From Amanita rubescens (taxonomy: Eukaryota > Basidiomycota > Agaricomycetes > Agaricales > Amanitaceae): a stretch of DNA of 64,000 nt. Shown one piece after another: positions 780 through 58,118 of this stretch (the stretch's first letter is position 1; the number at the start of each line of letters is the position of its first letter). The position numbers and the translations under genes were made by a program. Below the pieces are notes generated by a model. The model was not told the DNA's origin. It ran no database searches and saw only the letters and a list, made by a program, of their open reading frames with translations. Where the stretch lies: contig WION01000006.1 in NCBI GenBank assembly GCA_015039365.1, positions 62,001 to 126,000 on the forward strand. The letters run 5' to 3'.

Positions 780-3700
780 ATTTATCTTAAAATACTGTCT
801 AAATACAAAGGTCAGGTTTCAAACACACGTCCACATTTGGTCCCAAATCCCTTGGAGTCCAGAGTGAAAAGGTGTAGAGATATTTCCTAGGTGCCACCGT
901 ATATAACTGTAAAACTTCTGACAGAATTCTGGAAATGTACATTTTGCGGGAGAACCACAGCTGATAAAAAAGATCGTGCCAAAACAAGCGAATTAGATAA
1001 CTACGGCCGTTATGCATGAGAAAAGAACAAACGTAATGAGAATACCACTTACCTGGACAACTTGAGAACGCATAGCGATGAATGCATTGAACAAGAACTT
1101 TTGATTTGATGTGTAGGGAGGTGATGTTAAATCCCGCTTGCTGCTAGCAGACGAGGGAGGGGATAGATCACGTACTTAAGGCTTAGGCACGAAAGTGTCA
1201 ATGATGGTGGGAAAGTCCTGGTCCGAATTCTTTGGATGGGTAGCGGGAAGGCATTGATATGGCGAAAAGCCAGTCTAGAGGGTGAGTTGAGGGGTCACTC
1301 GAGAGAGCCAAGGAGGAGGATCACCATGTTTTCGTGTACCCGCAGTAAAGCCGAGAGATGAGAGATGGACAAGAACGGGCGGTTAAGTCTGCACACAGCT
1401 TGTCGATAAAGGTGATATTGATGGGTGAGGAAGACCAGAAGAGAGTTGAAGGGAGATCGTCGAAGGGCATACAATCGAACGGGATCAAGGCTTAAGAGCA
1501 GAGACTTATTTGGGAGACTTGGTGACCTGTTATAGGCGTAAGGATTACGCAGAGAGCTGAGAGCGGAGAAATCACCAAATCATGATTGATAATTTAGGAC
1601 GTGTCTGAAGTGACGAGAGAAGCGATGATCTTCGTTACGAGAGGTGCTGGCGGGCTGCGCAGTAACGGAAGACGGAGGTGCTTGAGGGACGGGTGCGACA
1701 TGATGACGAGGCTGATACTGTTGATGCTGCTGCAGGAGCGATGGCGCGTGAAGGGATGCATAGCGGGGGTGTACTGCAGTGTTGTAGCCACGGAGGGAGC
1801 CGCCTGCTATACTGGGAGGTTGGGACTGCATTGGTGGCACGCTGAGGTTTGCAGGGAGGGAACGGTGTTCAGCGCTGGGCTGCGTACGAAGGAACGCAAG
1901 AGTTGGAAGCGCGAGATGGTGTTGGGGCGGTGGTAGCCGCACCTACATCGTCCAATTGGTCGCATTGGTGTCAGCGTCCAGATCAGTTGGTTGTATTTCT
2001 CGAGATGGGCACCGGTTATAGCTACGTGTGTGGTCAGAATACGAGAAAAATAATGAAGATATCTCACTTGAACGCGATCGGGGGAGCGCTAGCGTTGAAA
2101 CCGGAAAGAACGAGTTGCGGGATTAGTCGGATGCGAAATGCGGCACTGAATCCAGCGTAGGGGGTGCACCGCAGTGTTGTAGCCAAGGTGGAGGGACTCG
2201 CCCGGTACTGGGAGCCATGATGGATGCTAGCTGCCATGGACATCGTAATAGACTACGTCGGATCGGACTTTGTCGCTGTGTTGAACCTCGCTCTCTGCTG
2301 GGCGCGAAAGTGTCGATGACAGTCTTTGGATGATGCGGTAGAGTGACCGCATCCTGCGGAACGCACGGGATGGTGGCCGATGGTGCTGGGGTTGAGGGAA
2401 GTGGCTGGCTGGCAAGTACGGCGGATCGAGGGGCGTGAGATCTTTGAGGTGGACTGAGGGTGTACAGGGCTCTTCGGGCGTGGGTTTAGGATGGAATGGA
2501 CGTGTTGTGAGGGCGAGGCAATGGGTGAGCGAGCATGACGATGTCGGGGAGCGTTGTGATGCGTGGGAAAGAGGCGTGTAGTCGCGGCTCGGTAAATGCC
2601 GATGTGCGGATTTTCCACTCGTATTCTGCTGGAATTCCACATTCCACGCGGAACGTGTATAGGCTGTGCCAGCCAAACTCGCTGTGGATACAGTGAATCA
2701 GTGATACAGATTCCGTGCAGAAATGGGGGGGGGGACTCACACGAAGTGCTCATTTTTAGTATGTGGATTATATAATCCAGGATGTGCCGGCGTTTAACGG
2801 GAACAAGAATGGAGAGTCGTTTCAGATTATAAAACCGAGACCTACGTTTCACTACGGCCTCGGAATGTGCCCAGTCCATGGCCAGAAGCCTGGGGCTTGG
2901 GCCTCAACGCATCTACCCAGGTTTATATACCATAGAATGCGTGGCGTGTGCCCTTGCATGTCTTTCGTGCTGCGTCAAACGCTTGGAGACCGACGGACGA
3001 TACGGGTCTTCCGCCGGATGAGATTGACGGCGCGCTGTCACCCAATGTCACAGGCACATATCTTGGCGCAGGCAGCCGACACGACTCACCGAGACGATTC
3101 CCGGTGTGGGTTACCTGCCAAGAAGCATGCCCACAAACTGGACGTGTCTTGAATGTGTCAATCCAATGGGAGCTGGACGAGTCGAAGTAAATCATGTAAC
3201 GCCAAGTTGCGCAGCCCAATGGCAAACGTGCGTATTTACCAAGGCTCAGTCAGAGACGTCTCCGGCAACACTGACAAGAGGCAATGCCTTTTTGTCACGG
3301 GAACAGCGGCAAATGATGCATAGACTATTCACGCTGTCTCTGCAAACTCATGGCCATGGCTGTATGAATTTCATCTCAATACCGTTGATCCACTCTACCA
3401 CACCTTCTGATCCATGTCTGATTTTGCACATCATGATCGGTTTGCCAGTCACACCTGCCGAGTCTTCATACCTTCTGGCCACGAGCAGCTCAACGAAGAT
3501 TATATCTACGCCAGGTGAAGGAGACAACGACAGGTGTTGACTCACAACTTGTTCGCGAACAGGGCCGACCTTCATGGCAAGCATCTCCGACCCGAGACGC
3601 TTGGTATTACGTAGCACATTAAATAAATGATGCCGCTAGTGCTGCCAAGTGTTCGCTGTACCATCGCCCAGCCATCTCGTGTTAAATCCACATGCATAAG

Positions 3701-5011: not shown

Positions 5012-5018
5012 TATAAAA
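5012..5018 (+). promoter_or_regulatory. TATA box of the defensin-like gene
   Basis: TATAAAA lies 85 bp upstream of the ATG at 5103. A strong TATA box that close suits a highly or inducibly expressed small secreted protein. No other element was assigned. Confidence 0.6.
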
Positions 5019-5102
5019 GGCCTGCAATTTTGGCAAAGAGAAGCAAGCCACTCACAGCTTACTCCAAGAACTTCTCCGCACATCGAATCCTCTTCAATAA
5101 AC

Positions 5103-5402
5103 ATGCAATTCCGTGCCCAGTTGTTCGTTGTTCAACTACTTGCTGCCGCTCTTCTGCTCTCGAGCGGTGTGCGCGCTTCACCTGCAGACCCTCAGCTTAT
5201 TGCGAGGGGGCCGGAGCTCAGCTGCCAAGCTTGCGACATATGGGGAGCTGGGGATGCGTGTTGCTCTGCTAGTTGCATTGCCCATGGTCAGGGCATACAC
5301 GGAGGCTACTGCGATTCCCGTAAGCGTGTTCTTTGACAATAACAGATAAAATAAACTGAAGGAATTATCGCTACAGACAAAGTGTGCCACTGCACTGTGT
5401 AA
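5103..5402 (+). CDS. Secreted CS-alpha-beta defensin-like peptide
   Basis: Two exons, 5103-5319 and 5377-5402, joined across a 57-nt GT-AG intron, give 80 residues. Residues 1-25 form a signal peptide (hydrophobic VVQLLAAALLL core, VRAS region), followed by a short propeptide ending near LIAR. The mature part has eight cysteines in the order C-x2-C-x8-C-C-x3-C-x11-C-x5-C-x-C, with GGYC before the sixth and CHC near the end. C-x3-C, GxC and CxC together are the signature of the CS-alpha-beta fold of fungal and invertebrate defensins such as plectasin; eight cysteines would allow four disulfides. Unlike most defensins it has one lysine but several histidines and acidic residues, so its charge would depend on pH. 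There is no dibasic Kex2 site. The last exon supplies only the closing CxC, so without the splice the motif is lost. Antimicrobial function is inferred from fold alone. Confidence 0.75.
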
Positions 5403-5881
5403 GCGTGGAAGCATTAACTATCCAGAGTTTGCGGTTTTGGTGAGTTGCCTGTCTCATTAAAATACCACTAGATTGAATCTAATAGGTAGATTCGCCTCGT
5501 CTTGTTATTTGACACGTGTAACAATGATTTAGTAGTTGCTTGTATATGATAGTTTGAGATTGTCAATCATTACCTTGCCTTAGTACGAATCCGGGCCAGT
5601 TTGTGAATAAGTGTAGCACGACTAGGTGCCATGACGGTGGGTGCAGACCTAGATGTTTCGCGCCGCCGAGCAACATTCAGTGGACAAACTTCATGAGCAT
5701 CAGAAAATACACCACCGACGACTGATTGTTCGAATACGAACTTGGTTTGATGTGAGTGTGAGGCGCCGCGTAAGTACAAAAAAGGAAATTACATAATGGA
5801 GGAATTTTTTGGTTCTTATTATACCGTCATCAAGCACGACGACAAGACTTAGGCTTGGCCGCTTAAGGGCATTTCTAGTAT
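5403..5881. other. Intergenic, promoter side of the exonuclease gene
   Basis: Nothing coding is supported here. It contains the 3' end of the small peptide gene and presumably the promoter of the gene starting at 5882. ORFs at 5570-5779 (minus) and 5809-6006 (plus) have no recognisable features. Confidence 0.5.
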
Positions 5882-8800
5882 ATGCACCGACGAACTCTCC
5901 ATCTCACCGGTACCACTACTACCTCCCGATGCATCGCTGCACCGTGTCGTCGTTTGGAGCTTCGGGCCTTGTCAACCTCGGACGAGCAGAGAACTTACGC
6001 CTCTGAAAAACAAAAAGGGGACAAGGCTTCATATTATGGCAGAGGAAAGAGGAGGTTGTCTCCAGAAATGCAAATGATGAAAGATACTTTCATGCTAATT
6101 AACAAGGCCACCAAAAAGAATACGGACCGTTCTGGATGGAGGGGTATTAATAAGCGGAGGTCTGAGGAAACGAGACTGAAGGCCGATATCAGGGTGGCTG
6201 GGTGGGGGGTGAGAGCTCTCGGGGAAAGCCACAGGGAGAAGCTTGTGCAAGTGGAAAACCTAGAAACGGGTCATGGAGGGATAGCGAATCAGCCGGCGCA
6301 GTTGCCATCGTTGATGAAGCAAGCTTATGATGCTAGTGAAGGGCAAGAACACGAGCAAGATTTGGTGGCAATTACATACGAGCTTGGGATGTTTGTGGAA
6401 TTGAGACGGTGATTTCTCTTATATTCCCCAATGAATCTTCCTCATTTGTCATTTTCTATAGAAATGAGATATCCACACATGGCGTTATCGTGGGCGAAAG
6501 ATCCGCTGCTGGACGCCTCTTTTACCCTTGCCTCATGTCTTCTGGTGAAATCTGGACACCCAATGTTAACGACATATACTTTTCCCTTCCACCCATCGCC
6601 CCTAGCGATCTCGCGCGGCGTTGCGGCACGGACCCCATCGCGACTAACGAAGGTCAGCAGAATGCGCGTGTGCAGATGCTCCGGCGCATTCGCCTTGTCG
6701 AGAAGGCATTGGAAAATAAATATCATGTTGTGTCTGTAAATGCACATGACCTGTACGAAAAATTACGGCATCCGGATCCACACCAGTGGGGCGAAACGAC
6801 GGTTGGAGAAGTTACAAAGACATTGAAATTGCAAGGCTTGATATCCGAGTTCGCGGTGCACAGGTTCTTAATGAACAATCCTATCAATTTTGTCGCGGAA
6901 CCGGGTTACAGAGCCTCCCAGAAATTCAAAGTCGTCCCTGAAGCGCACGTCAAGGACCTAGAAGCAGTCGAAGCGTGGATGAGAAAGGAAGACGGTCCAT
7001 TAACCAAATTCGTCCCTGAAGCGCACGTCAACGACCCAGAAGCAGTTGAAGCGTGGATAAGTCCATTAACCAAATTCGCACAGAAAGCGTGGCGCATCGT
7101 CGTTGCAAACAGAGAGAAACTCAGGTTGGGATTTGCCGGCGCACCCAGCTGGCGTCGTGCACACCACGCATGGGACGCGAATGACCGGACGATCTTGCGT
7201 GTGCTAATAAACGCCTTGAGGTTCCAAAGAAGTACTCAATCTGATCCATATGTCATATTTGTAAGCGCGATTCTGAAAAGGTTAGATTTGGAGAGTCCGG
7301 TTGTGAAGGATCACGAGCTTCAAGCGACGCTTGTTGAGCTGGGCATTTTGGCACCCTGGCAAGATCTGGTAGTCATTCAACCGCACCTGGATCTCGATCT
7401 TGAACCAGAACACAAATCGAAAAGGGCGAAGAAACAGAATGAGTTGGTGCAGCGGGGATTCAAAATGATTAAGCAGGCCGCGACAAACCGGCCTACGACG
7501 CAGGCGAAGAATCGGTTGGGGCCCGAAGATTTTCATCCCTCGGATCCACTCGAGGAAGTCCGACATGATTTTGGCGATATGAAGATATATGTTGTCGATG
7601 ATTTCAACGCGCAGGAGCTCGACGATGGTATTTCTATCGAACGCGTACCTCTCGAGCCAGGCAGTATGTGGATACACGTGCATATAGCCGATATGGCCTC
7701 GGTAATACATCCAAGACATGTTTTCGCAATCGAGGCAAGCAAAAGACAGGAAACAATGTACTTGCACAATGCATTCCCGCTTTTTCCGCCCTCTCTTACC
7801 CACTCCCCAACGCATGGATTGTCTCTTGGCTCGAGAGGGAAGGGTGGGGGCCCACTTCGTGTGCTTACATTCAGTTGTAAAGTTGACGCAGATGCAAAGA
7901 TATTAGATTACAAGATACGTGCAGGCCTCGTGCGGAATATCAAAACAATCGACTATGATTCTGTGGACCGCGCTCTAGGCCTACCGTCTCATGCTCATTA
8001 TCCGTTTGGTCGACCTTCATCCACGACTGACACAGAGACTGCATCGCTATCAGAAGAGGAAATACAAGATTTTCGTGACCTACTTGCATTCGCCGATGCT
8101 GCGACTTCTCAGCGCGTAAAGAACGGCACCTTTGCCATTGATCATGCATTGGGAAAAGTTCAATTGGGTTCATTACCGGAGCGCATGCCGACGTGGCCGA
8201 CCCTTAAACCCTCTGAATTTTCTGGCTTCCCTTCGATGAATTATATTGTGCAGCGAACAAGCGACATGGAACGTGGGTCGCGCAGTGTAATTGCCGAAGC
8301 AGCTAAGTTGGCTTGCCGTGTAACTTCACGCTTTGGGTTGGAATGGAACCTTCCGCTTTTGCGTCGTCATGCTCCTCCATTTGTCCCTAATAATCCAACG
8401 GATCTCTGCAAGATGATGGTTGCACGGACATCAAATGGCTACGCCGAACCTCACATAGCAGCCAAGTACATATCATTCTCCCCACCTTCGACATATACGC
8501 TATTACCGAAGGAACATTTCCATTTGGGTGTCCCTGACGGCGAGGGCTATGTCAGGTCAACGTCTCCGCTGAGGCGATATAGTGATCTGGTTGTACACTG
8601 GCAGTTGCACCATGCACTCCTCGGTGGAAGGGCCGAGTTTTCCACACCACCGTTCAGCGCCGACGACCTGGAGAAGTACATGGCGAAACTTACGGGGCAT
8701 GAAAGCCGGCAAAAGGGGCTGAGGTTTCACCACCAAAGGTATTGGCAGACAATGTTTATTCATCGGTGGGTGGAAGGCATAAGGCTAGGACATATTGATC

Positions 8801-9045
8801 CAGACAAAGTTGTGGGAGGGAAGAATCCAATGGATGAGCTCTATGCGCGAACACAATTGTTGCCAAGGGTCAACCCGCAACTGAGGTATGAAGCTCCAGT
8901 CACGCTTCCAGATATTGGGGCCCGTGGCATACTACTCCTCCCTGATCGCACACTCGACGTGGAAATCGGTACAGAATTTAATGTGAGGCTGAAGGAGGTG
9001 AAGCTGGGGGTAAGGCCGATGATGACGTTTGAGGTGAAGGAGTAG
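5882..9045 (+). CDS. DSS1: Mitochondrial RNase II-family 3'-5' exoribonuclease (Dss1/Msu1 type)
   Basis: Exons 5882-6408 and 6462-9045 (53-nt intron) give 1036 residues. The N-terminus is rich in R, S and T and lacks acidic residues over the first 30 or so positions, as in a mitochondrial targeting peptide. The C-terminal half is an RNB domain: the acidic cluster reads DDFNAQELDDGIS, the form seen in the Dss1 branch (DD-G instead of the DDA of bacterial RNase II), and SPLRRYSDLVVHWQ matches the second catalytic RNB block. In yeast this enzyme is the nuclease subunit of the mitochondrial degradosome with the Suv3 helicase. Around 6934-7078 an internal duplication repeats VPEAHVxDxEAVEAW...PLTKF. 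CYP51 starts 139 bp downstream on the same strand. The start is the first ATG giving a targeting peptide. Confidence 0.9.
6934..7078 (+). repeat. In-frame tandem duplication inside DSS1
   Basis: Two copies of a roughly 78-nt and 66-nt unit, both starting GTCCCTGAAGCGCACGTCAA and ending near ACCAAATTC. The second lacks 12 nt. The frame is kept, adding about 22 residues between the N-terminal region and the RNB domain. Confidence 0.85.
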
Positions 9046-23353: not shown

Positions 23354-25701
23354 ATGAGCTTCCTCGTCAGTCCAAGACTGCACATGCAGCCAGACAACAA
23401 CCCCTCCACAGACCAAGACTATCCCGACGATCACCAGCCCCTGCCTATTCAAAAGCAACACAACTCCAGTTGCTGTATGTCTGCTTCTCTACGATCGTAT
23501 TTCGATCGTCTCATCCGTTTTTTGCAGATTGGGCCCTTCTCAATTCATCGCTCGATTTCATTTATTTAGATCCTATTCTTTCCAGTCATCTCGCCGACCA
23601 GGCTGGCCTCCTACTTAACAAATCTCTCATTGACTACGTCCATCCCGATGAGCAGGCTTCAGCTAAGCACGATATTGGCGGCGTCGTCGAACGCAAGACA
23701 ATGCACGGCTCAATAACTCGGTATATTTTTCTCCTTTTCTCTTGTCCCCGGCTGACGATTTATATTTCCGTTTCATGCAGCATACGATTTTCCCGGTTAT
23801 CCAGAATCCGTCGCATGCTGGGGTACGACGGGCCGCTGTCAAATTCCACATACCGCCAGAGTTTCTCTGGATCCTAACTACATGGTCGTCGACATTGTCA
23901 CAAACTGGGCTGCGGAGGGCCTCGTGTTATGCTTTATCCACGCAACTGCCGAGCATGATAGTGAAGACTTGAAAAAGTCCGAATGGACAAACTGGTGCGG
24001 AACGCCCGTCCTGGACATGCAACAGATACATCGCCTGTACCATGCCCTCCTCATGTACATTCCGCAAGGTAACATGACCAGAGTCTTCCAAATACTATCA
24101 AATTCGCAAGAACGGGCTTTATTAGTATCCTGGCCTCCGGACCCAGTCCAAAACGACCCAGGTCCTTCCGGCCGGGACTTCGCAAAGCTGGTCGAGACCG
24201 TGGAGTTTGGCGCCAGTCCAGGTTTGAGTGATGCCAAGACCACTTGCGCTAGGCGGTACCGGTCAATTAGACCCCTGCCATTGTTCGCGGATACCGTCGA
24301 AAGTATTTTTGTTCCTCATGGTAAGCAGGCGTTAGGGTTCACTGCGGAGTACTATATCTGACGCAACGCGTGTTCCGAAGGGTCTGTTATCTTTGCATGT
24401 CACAGAATCAATGCATCCTCTCGCAACGCTACCTCTACGATGCCTCAGGCATATAGCACTTCTACATACCACCCTCAGCAGCAACAATATTACGAACAGC
24501 AAACCAACTTTGCGCTCCCTCCTCTTGCGTCTCCCCAGACCGCATACAATGGCAATTACGCTCCGCAAACTCAGAATTTACCGACATCGTATTCAACTCA
24601 GCGATGGTCCGCCGAACAGCAAGGCGTGTACCATCAATGGGAATCATCCGCGCATTCACCCTCTCATGTCCCGACTGTAAGTAATCTACGATCTGGAGCA
24701 TACCCGCCACATCTGCATCAATGGCAGGCCCCGCCCCCGTCATACGTGGACGCGAGTACCAATTCTCAAGCCGGTTTCAATCGGCCAATTTCCCCGGGTT
24801 ATTCCTATCCAGCAGTAGGAGGTTCCGGAGGCGAATTTCCCACAGACCTTGTGCCGCCTCCAAGGCGTCGAGTGAGCCCAGGTTCCACGCGTGACCATTA
24901 CTCCACAACTAGCCGCGCGGCCAGCAACAGGCCGATGGGCGTCCTTCGGTGTTCAAGCTGCAAGGCGACCCAAAGCCCGGAGTGGCGTAAGGGACCGAGT
25001 GGGAAGAAAGAATTGTGCAACGCGTAAGCTCTGTCTTTGAGATCCGAGCAATGATTGATCATCAATGCAGGTGTGGTTTACGCTATGCTCGTTCCCGGGC
25101 AAAGAAGGAAGGTCACAACCCAACTCAACGCAAACGAAAAGAGAAGACACAGGTAAAAGCCGAGTCGACCACACCTCCAAATGCATCGCCTACCTACCCG
25201 GCTATGCGGCGCAGAATCGGAGAGGAGTCATTCTCCACTTCTTCAACTGGTTCGCCCTCGGGCAGCGATATCTACTCACAGTCTGGACACCCCGTTCTCA
25301 GTACTCTCACTCCATCCCCATCCCCACCAGCAAACAACATGAGCTTTGTACATTATTCCCCTGGCCCGAATAGCCGCCAGCAATATTCTACCGCTACAAA
25401 CAACTTTTATTCAGTTCCATCTCCGCTTTCTAATCCGCCAGTTCTCAATACTCCGCACGAAACGGCTCATTCAACGCACGAACAGCATGGCACTCAACTA
25501 CCTCCATTGGGTCAAATCTCGTCCTATACAAGTCGCATATCCCCGATGCTCCCGGCAGCTTCCTCCATCACACATTCGCCGCTTACCTCTACCCTGCCAT
25601 TAGCATCATATGAGCGTGAAAGGGACAAGGACCGAGAGCTTCCACCGACACCGGTTTCTGCTGAGCCGCGCCAGCCCAGGTCCATTCTGACACATCAATG
25701 A
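23354..25701 (+). CDS. White-collar-2-like PAS/GATA transcription factor (frame break)
   Basis: Exons 23354-23474, 23528-23720, 23781-24320, 24381-25023 and 25071-25701. A PAS-like domain (SSLDFIYLDPILSSHL, SLIDYVHPDEQ) leads into RIRFSRLSRIRRMLGYDGP, then VVDIVTNWAAEGLVLCFIHA, IPHG-type VIFACHRIN, a Q/S/P-rich region, and a GATA zinc finger CxxC-x18-CxxC starting CSSCKATQSPEWRKG, followed by a basic tail (RAKKEGHNPTQRKRKEK). PAS plus C-terminal GATA finger is the WC-2 layout; the partner WC-1 is a blue-light photoreceptor. In exon 3 the frame of LGYDGPLSNSTYR does not continue into VSLDPNYM: one base too many lies near 23840-23860. A 37-nt (23823-23859), 64-nt or longer intron ending CCGCCAG could restore the frame but would remove conserved-looking residues. 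So this is a base error, a real frameshift, or unusual splicing. Confidence 0.82.
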
Positions 25702-56864: not shown

Positions 56865-58118
56865 TCATTCCTCTCGTTTGAGGCTCGTCCATCGCTGATA
56901 CATCCCCTTCTCCTTCCAATTTGCATTGGGTGCAGTTTGATCTTTAATCTCCTTGCTTCCAAGGCCAGCCCGGTTGGCGGTAGGGTTAATCTCAAGTGGC
57001 TGGACTAATCTAGTCCGGCCTTCGTCGAAACCTTGATCTGACGTACCGAGCACCATACCAGGTGCCCAACCTTGCTTCATCAGGAGGCGGTGTCCAATAT
57101 TAGAACTTGGTAACGGAGTAGCTGGCTTGGATACAGGCTCTAGCGATGGCGTCCGCATATCCGGAGTAAGAACAGGCGAATTGTGTCGTTCGGATGGCAT
57201 AGTGATTAGGGCAGCAGGTTGCACGCCAGGAGAATCTGAATGTGAGGATGGATGGAGAGCACGCCGGCGGGCAGAACGGTCGATATATTGGGTATCATCG
57301 GATGGTGACTGAGAACGTGGCGCAGCTTGTTCGTGGCGTGCAAGCAGGTTATGCTTGAGCATAGTCAACGCTTTCTTCGCATCTCTCTCAGGCTTTGGAG
57401 CGCAAGACAAGGTTTCCAAGCCAGCTGACTCTCTTGTTCGCTTCTGCGGATTCGTAGGAGTGGCTTTCGTTGAATGAAACAGAGGAATTTGAATTTCATC
57501 TCCATCGGCTGGAGAACACACATCACATGGAACTTTGTCTTTGTGTATATGAATGACAAAGGTCGTGCTTCCCAGCGTCAGACGATCTAAATGCCTCAGC
57601 TGCTTCGGCACGCTGGCCATGCGAGGCGGGGATAACCGCGGACCAACGTCATTTGACGAGGATGACGTGGAAGATGCCGACCGAAGGAAAGTTCCATGCT
57701 TGGAACCCATATCCACGACACTCCATTCTAGTCTCTGGGCATCCCAGTACACAGTTGCATGGAGTTTGGAAACTTCCATCTCCTTCAGCCTGACCCTAGG
57801 TATGCCGACATCCGCGAGCGGCGCATCTCGGCCCAGTTGCAACTCTGAGTACCCGTCGATAATCGCAAGCTTATGCTTGCGGGGTAGAATCGATGTGCGT
57901 AATACGACAAGACGTAGCGACGGCGTATTTGTATGGTGCTTCTGTGGAGCAGAAGGGCGAGGTTCTTTTGCTTGATATTCGGATATTGTGGCATCCAGAG
58001 TTACAGCAGTGGATGATTCACCGGGCCATTCGTAGGCAGGATCATAGACATCGCCCGGCCTTGGCCGGTGATTCCAGTGTTGTGCGGCCCTGGAATCGAT
58101 AATCTCGCCATCTTCCAT
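56865..58118 (-). CDS. FHA plus G-patch protein (AGGF1-like)
   Basis: One exon, 417 residues. FHA domain at about 70-195: LQLGRDAPLADVGIP, EVSKLHATVYWD, VVDMGSKHGTFLR and LTLGSTTFVIHIH, with the G-R, S-x-x-H and N/H-G-T residues that bind phosphothreonine (here KHGT). A Ser/Pro-rich linker follows, then a G-patch at about 345-395: IGHRLLMKQGWAPGMVLG...NPTANRAGLGS. The end is basic. FHA next to G-patch is the layout of AGGF1-type proteins; G-patches activate DEAH helicases in splicing or ribosome assembly, so a nuclear RNA role is likely (inference). Divergent from the XLF-like gene, 272 bp apart. Confidence 0.88.
   Translation of the reverse strand: MEDGEIIDSRAAQHWNHRPRPGDVYDPAYEWPGESSTAVTLDATISEYQAKEPRPSAPQKHHTNTPSLRLVVLRTSILPRKHKLAIIDGYSELQLGRDAPLADVGIPRVRLKEMEVSKLHATVYWDAQRLEWSVVDMGSKHGTFLRSASSTSSSSNDVGPRLSPPRMASVPKQLRHLDRLTLGSTTFVIHIHKDKVPCDVCSPADGDEIQIPLFHSTKATPTNPQKRTRESAGLETLSCAPKPERDAKKALTMLKHNLLARHEQAAPRSQSPSDDTQYIDRSARRRALHPSSHSDSPGVQPAALITMPSERHNSPVLTPDMRTPSLEPVSKPATPLPSSNIGHRLLMKQGWAPGMVLGTSDQGFDEGRTRLVQPLEINPTANRAGLGSKEIKDQTAPNANWKEKGMYQRWTSLKREE

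Follow-up and report, generated by a model that had tools for sequence, protein, structure and literature searches.

Insect defensins are cationic peptides with three disulfide bridges only. Few mushroom defensins have been studied. Copsin, from Coprinopsis cinerea, is described as a peptide of 57 residues with six disulfide bridges (PMC6272156), and plectasin, from Pseudoplectania nigrella, is given six cysteines in PMC5116183. Abisin1-3 of Agaricus bisporus, which form part of family fDEF1, are reported with charges of -3.8, -3.8 and -2.8 and with one intron (PMC4165938). An anionic charge is assigned to more than 60% of putative fungal defensins in PMC6181372, where AfusinC from Aspergillus fumigatus, itself anionic and of the same cysteine-stabilized alpha-beta (CS-alpha-beta) fold, is credited with minimum inhibitory concentrations of 4-64 ug/ml on most Gram-positive strains tested. 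Here we set beside these peptides a gene of Amanita rubescens at positions 5103-5402 of the forward strand of a 64,000-nucleotide stretch of contig WION01000006.1 (the window, whose numbering is used unless a contig is named; the gene occupies C545:67103-67402, C545 being the contig that holds the window). Judged from its sequence and a predicted structure, the gene product, atesin-3, is a secreted CS-alpha-beta defensin.

The two exons (5103-5319 and 5377-5402) join in frame, and translation of the spliced window DNA gives an 80-residue precursor that a scripted comparison found to be identical, letter for letter, to the NCBI nr record 'atesin-3 [Amanita rubescens]' (P0001). The gene is therefore already deposited and annotated with the correct splice. 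Exon 1 is 217 bases long and ends after base 1 of codon 73; the 57-base intron (5320-5376, GTAAGC...CTACAG, phase 1) falls in the loop between the two strands; exon 2 completes codon 73 with two bases and continues through KVCHCTV to the stop codon. An enumeration of GT-AG pairs (donor within 5240-5336, intron of about 40-260 bases) gave other splices that also end in CHCTV, such as donor 5326 with acceptor 5376; among those listed, only 5320/5376 yields the deposited protein. The spliced 80-residue, eight-cysteine product with an intron at 5320-5376, proposed in a first-pass annotation made from the letters of the window, is thus exact in its coordinates and matches a public record. Its novelty is lower than was claimed there, since atesin-3 had already been deposited: the protein, its fold and its kind are known, and an anionic charge is usual.

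The hydrophobic N-terminus (residues 1-25, 5103-5177) reads as a signal peptide with a probable cut between VRA and SP by the -3/-1 rule. It is followed by a probable short propeptide (residues 26-35, 5178-5207) ending in R35, which is suggested by the many relatives that carry AR, VR or KR directly before the first cysteine; nine (P0004, P0005, P0008-P0010, P0012-P0014 and P0017) have no basic residue near it. All eight cysteines lie in the second half of the precursor, spaced as C41-x2-C44-x8-C53-C54-x3-C58-x11-C70-x5-C76-x-C78. The exon 1 part of the putative mature defensin (residues 36-72, 5208-5318) contains C41, C44, C53, C54, C58 and C70, codon 73 being split by the intron.

Searched as a single sequence against public proteins, atesin-3 returned four relatives besides itself (E 2.7e-31 to 5.7e-12); a three-row profile extended these to 36 proteins and a 23-row profile to 70, for a combined total of 73 clusters with P0001 included. 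The match to this family is far beyond chance. Members span several fungal phyla: within the Agaricales they come from Amanita thiersii, Lyophyllum atratum, Cyathus striatus, Mycena pura and Laccaria amethystina, and elsewhere from many Aspergillus and Penicillium as well as Cordyceps, Ophiocordyceps, Rhypophila, Arachnomyces, Mortierella, Linnemannia and Lichtheimia. Some bear the name 'atesin-3', as do Mycena pura P0012 and Linnemannia gamsii P0020, or a name beginning 'Invertebrate defensins'; many are called 'hypothetical protein', and a good part are unnamed. P0001 itself scores below the curated cut-off of the Pfam model Defensin_2 (PF01097; 15.1 versus 20.4 bits), while 31 of the 49 members aligned reach E <= 0.01 with it, so that the family sits at the edge of the model. 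The CS-alpha-beta framework is nonetheless complete in atesin-3 (C41...C54-x3-C58...C70...C76-x-C78), with no variation at C41, C54, C58 and C70 among the 49 members aligned, and the atesin-type stretch, CSxxC then GGx, is complete in 51 of the 73 clusters, the other 22 being largely frames cut at an intron. One deposited protein, P0037 from Mortierella sp. GBA39, has two consecutive family defensin domains and may be two genes joined by annotation.

An AlphaFold model of the core (residues 41-80; predicted local distance difference test scores of about 81-86) has a helix at residues 50-60 and strands at 67-70 and 76-79, with the helix packed on the two-stranded sheet; this is the arrangement by which the superfamily is recognized, here in a predicted structure. 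The helix-sheet cysteine core expected of a CS-alpha-beta fold is thereby predicted. Structural searching agrees, with weak scores: by title, 14 of the 18 PDB entries listed are defensins, drosomycin, sapecin or scorpion toxin; the remaining four have titles that do not reveal the fold. Plectasin is among the structural matches; eurocin, micasin and copsin are not, an absence that carries no inference. At the level of sequence, the closest solved proteins are insect-type defensins (the DEF-AAA series) and the venom polypeptide 6px8, not plectasin. An unrelated entry, one of the four matches in one Foldseek search, was set aside, as were PDB sequence matches to a complement receptor (E 0.018) and rotavirus NSP2 (E 0.7-0.8), which we take for chance.

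The two cysteines outside the canonical framework, C44 and C53, appear and disappear together. Across 74 domains of the 73 clusters (one chance match in P0046 being excluded from the 'neither' count) both are present in 16, neither in 58 and one alone in none, these rows being related and many of them near copies. Domains without the pair have Gly at position 44 and, at position 53, Ala (Leu in two cases). On a 52-row tree, for which both columns were masked, the pair switches state about six times (bootstrap range 4-7; at least two on well-supported branches), and both states occur within Amanita (both cysteines in A. rubescens, neither in A. thiersii) and within Ophiocordyceps. An independent-pairs test of joint gain yielded two well-supported pairs, in the same direction (six on all branches), a number that puts significance out of reach. 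The simplest reading is that C44 and C53 form a disulfide with each other and are gained and lost jointly, and a C44-C53 disulfide in atesin-3, suggested by the first-pass annotation as a probable fourth bridge, is probable and well supported by the co-occurrence. For plant, insect, mollusc and macin peptides a fourth bridge is described at other positions than these, and several fungal families are said to have their own patterns (PMC5116183).

The position of the intron also appears to be shared. In relatives, intron placement was judged from the protein letters alone: among 16 whose frames stop short after GGxC (at least three residues beyond), eight have a third-codon residue that fits a phase-1 GT donor and the remaining eight do not. 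The phase-1-compatible relatives group with Agaricales rows in the tree, and the intron position is probably conserved in the family. Several Aspergillus frames have a terminal K or EK, the outcome expected of a phase-2 donor; furthermore, Aspergillus frames that end in CSASV or break off after CSAS suggest a second intron, in the helix. Indeed, a phase-0 intron in the helix and a phase-2 intron in the loop are reported for other fungal defensins (PMC4165938). P0004 is a 995-base contig that reads through with no intron, and it may represent a transcript. That single-exon gene finders would miss the exon carrying the CxC end is plausible, given the eight relatives recorded as frames apparently running into the intron, although the present gene is annotated correctly. 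Homology, predicted fold, cysteine co-occurrence and this probably conserved intron position together back the proposal of a secreted CS-alpha-beta defensin-like peptide in a basidiomycete.

The charge of the peptide depends on pH. Computed from G36 with the cysteines paired, it is about +1.3 at pH 5, +0.1 at pH 6, -2.1 at pH 7.0 and -2.8 at pH 7.4; the earlier description as near neutral thus fits only near pH 6, and the peptide is better called mildly anionic; that its activity varies with pH, as first suggested, is a hypothesis. By the same kind of computation many family members are anionic. Two positions set the family apart. His66, directly before GG, has a counterpart in 50 of the 51 members with the complete stretch, whereas the aligned insect defensins have Arg there. 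The position of plectasin's H18, just before the third framework cysteine, is Ser57 in atesin-3 and Ser in 49 of the 51, with His in the other two. Changing H18 to Ala in plectasin is reported to lower lipid II affinity more than ten-fold (PMC11222147), so that 'plectasin-like', the label first given to the gene, holds at the level of the fold and goes no deeper, the family being without H18. Ser57 remains compatible with a lipid II target, since copsin also does without these plectasin residues and yet is reported to form lipid II assemblies (PMC12284004, PMC11222147). Lipid II binding by the atesin family, if any, would have to go through other contacts.

The surroundings of the gene bear on whether it is kept. 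Several blocks of C545 have colinear counterparts on a second contig of 36 kb, C481, which appears to represent the other haplotype; identity is 99.3% in the 5.1-kb block containing the gene and 98.5% in an upstream block of 7.6 kb. No base of the coding sequence differs between the two contigs, while the 2,600 bases compared contain 27 aligned differing columns outside it (7 substitutions and two 10-base indels). Upstream, at 7.7 and 8.7-8.8 kb and outside the window, lie two paralogues, one direct and one inverted, both with counterparts on C481. In the direct copy (C545:59412-59588, + strand) a stop interrupts the core on C545, and on C481 the frame is broken. The inverted copy (C545:58259-58390, - strand) keeps a 90-codon open frame with its leader, and most of the defensin core is gone on both contigs. 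Both copies are apparently decayed, which for the inverted one is a judgement. Because window segments match upstream segments of the same contig at about 80% (2905-3574 to C545:57269-58000 at 82%; 5148-5559 to C545:59413-59771 at 80%), the locus seems to have arisen by tandem segment duplication. An identical coding sequence amid differing flanks, beside two decayed-looking paralogues, suggests that selection keeps the atesin-3 copy; that one of the three copies is whole argues for function without proving it.

The rest of the genome gave no clear second locus. A protein search returned at least seven matches, all in the atesin-3 cluster or in its counterpart on the second contig. Searching with Defensin_2 marked six places, the best of them on C331, which scored 20.6 bits, slightly above the cut-off, and is interrupted by a stop; the C331 locus showed no defensin-like cysteine pattern with the pattern tried, and we therefore take that match for chance. 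Of 14 control genomes, 3 also gave sub-cut-off matches in this search, and atesin-3 itself was absent from its list, so that it leaves room for further defensin genes. A genome search with the GGYC codon pattern gave 208 and 222 matches versus 345 and 344 for its reversed control, and so carries no information on this point.

What, then, might atesin-3 do? We think it rather likely that it is a secreted, bridged defence peptide against bacteria, probably acting on the envelope of Gram-positive species. Removal of the signal peptide, and probably of the ten-residue propeptide, would leave a peptide of about 45 residues that folds into one helix and a two-stranded sheet; the canonical bridges would be C41-C70, C54-C76 and C58-C78, and C44-C53 would tie the N-terminal loop to the beginning of the helix. 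Secreted around the mycelium or fruiting body, the peptide would act in host defence, chiefly against Gram-positive bacteria, at the cell envelope, where a cell-wall precursor is the probable target, as with other CS-alpha-beta defensins. In this scheme the fold is predicted, while bridge pairing, processing, antibacterial role and target are what we infer from it and from known relatives. One point weighs against an antibacterial role and lowers our confidence in it: according to PMC8877149, antibacterial activity had been shown only for fungal peptides near the ancient invertebrate type. It is conceivable, if unlikely, that the peptide instead serves the development or fitness of its own fungus, acting on bacteria only incidentally or not at all. 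Anisin1, a CS-alpha-beta defensin gene of Aspergillus nidulans, is associated with conidiation (PMC6394349), and both the lack of H18 and the anionic charge of many members would suit such a role; however, the same source has the aclasin gene of A. clavatus up two-fold with bacteria or oxidative stress, and AfusinC is antibacterial despite being anionic (PMC6181372), both being parallels drawn at the level of the fold.

We regard as quite improbable a role as a symbiosis effector on the tree root, or one on soil fungi or animals through ion channels. A. rubescens is ectomycorrhizal, atesin-3 is a small secreted cysteine-rich protein, CS-alpha-beta folds include channel toxins, and its best single PDB sequence match, 6px8, is a defensin-scaffold polypeptide from venom. 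Yet the family is also present in Aspergillus, Penicillium, Mycena and Linnemannia, which are moulds and saprotrophs, so that a symbiosis-specific role fits poorly. Finally, the fate of the neighbouring copies, two of three looking decayed on both contigs, raises the thought that atesin-3 is itself a silent or decaying relic. This seems very unlikely for a gene whose open frame, leader, splice sites and eight cysteines are intact, whose coding sequence is identical on both contigs and in which the family motifs are fully kept.

Beyond the preferred reading of atesin-3 as an antibacterial defence peptide, the family as a whole invites a broader proposal, which is possible but which we hold tentatively. 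The atesin family may be a fungus-wide defensin lineage in which the C44-C53 bridge has been gained or lost as a unit several times, with Ser for plectasin's His and a near-invariant, titratable His before GG; its members may bind their bacterial target unlike plectasin and be active chiefly in soil or on surfaces that are acidic, conditions in which their net charge turns positive. By title we found, among the papers listed, no paper on an Amanita defensin or on atesin as a defensin, nor in print the joint switching of C44 and C53 or the family-wide Ser57 and His66, in searches that leave out most subscription papers. The atesin family has replacements at two positions that are important, or differ, in plectasin and insect defensins, and it raises the question of whether His before GG makes the peptide pH-dependent.

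Several further features were seen along the window. A TATA-box-like sequence, TATAAAAG (5012-5019, + strand), stands 91 bases before the ATG, and inspection by eye shows the long frames of P0002 and P0003, both relatives, extending from the place that matches it to the ATG; a possible polyadenylation signal, ATTAAA, lies at 5456-5461 (+ strand) by pattern only. About 1 kb downstream of the defensin gene, 6409-9045 (+ strand) is an 878-codon frame with an RNB ribonuclease domain (PF00773, E 1.6e-42), inside which a short repeat occurs at about 6927-7078. More distant frames include 24440-25024 (+ strand), which ends in a partial GATA zinc finger, and 56868-58118 (- strand), with FHA and G-patch domains. 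The two contigs also differ upstream of the gene: 534-2864 is a repeat element on C545 that is absent from the same place on C481, and a stretch ending near 477 (C545:61522-62477) likewise has no counterpart there. The DNA of the repeat at 534-2864 matches at least 54 places in the genome, the window included (40 of 88 candidates scored), with near-complete other copies on C526 and C4 (99%) and on C122 (92%) and a copy on C66 in two pieces.

Set against the described systems, atesin-3 stands apart from copsin, which is likewise a mushroom CS-alpha-beta defensin but has six bridges versus a probable four; the twelve-cysteine copsin type is not seen here, mature atesin-3 having eight cysteines. 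With the abisins, which also come from a mushroom, it shares an anionic charge and one intron, and with AfusinC an anionic charge and, as predicted, the fold, AfusinC differing in that its activity has been measured. Plectasin has six cysteines versus eight in atesin-3, and H18 in place of Ser57. The nearest solved sequences and folds, insect defensins (PF01097; the DEF-AAA series, lucifensin and sapecin) and the venom polypeptide Dg3b (6px8), have the same cysteine order, and the insect-type peptides carry Arg before GG in the five alignments shown, whereas the atesin family carries His. Closer still in kind are the six-cysteine members of the family itself (A. thiersii P0006, Lyophyllum atratum P0005, Aspergillus and Penicillium), which share the CSASC...GGxC...VCxC core and the hydrophobic leader; in these, Gly and Ala or Leu replace C44 and C53, hence there is no fourth bridge. 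The bridge has seemingly been gained and lost naturally, both states being found in a single genus, and eight-cysteine A. rubescens and six-cysteine A. thiersii form a natural pair in which to ask what the added bridge does for stability and killing.
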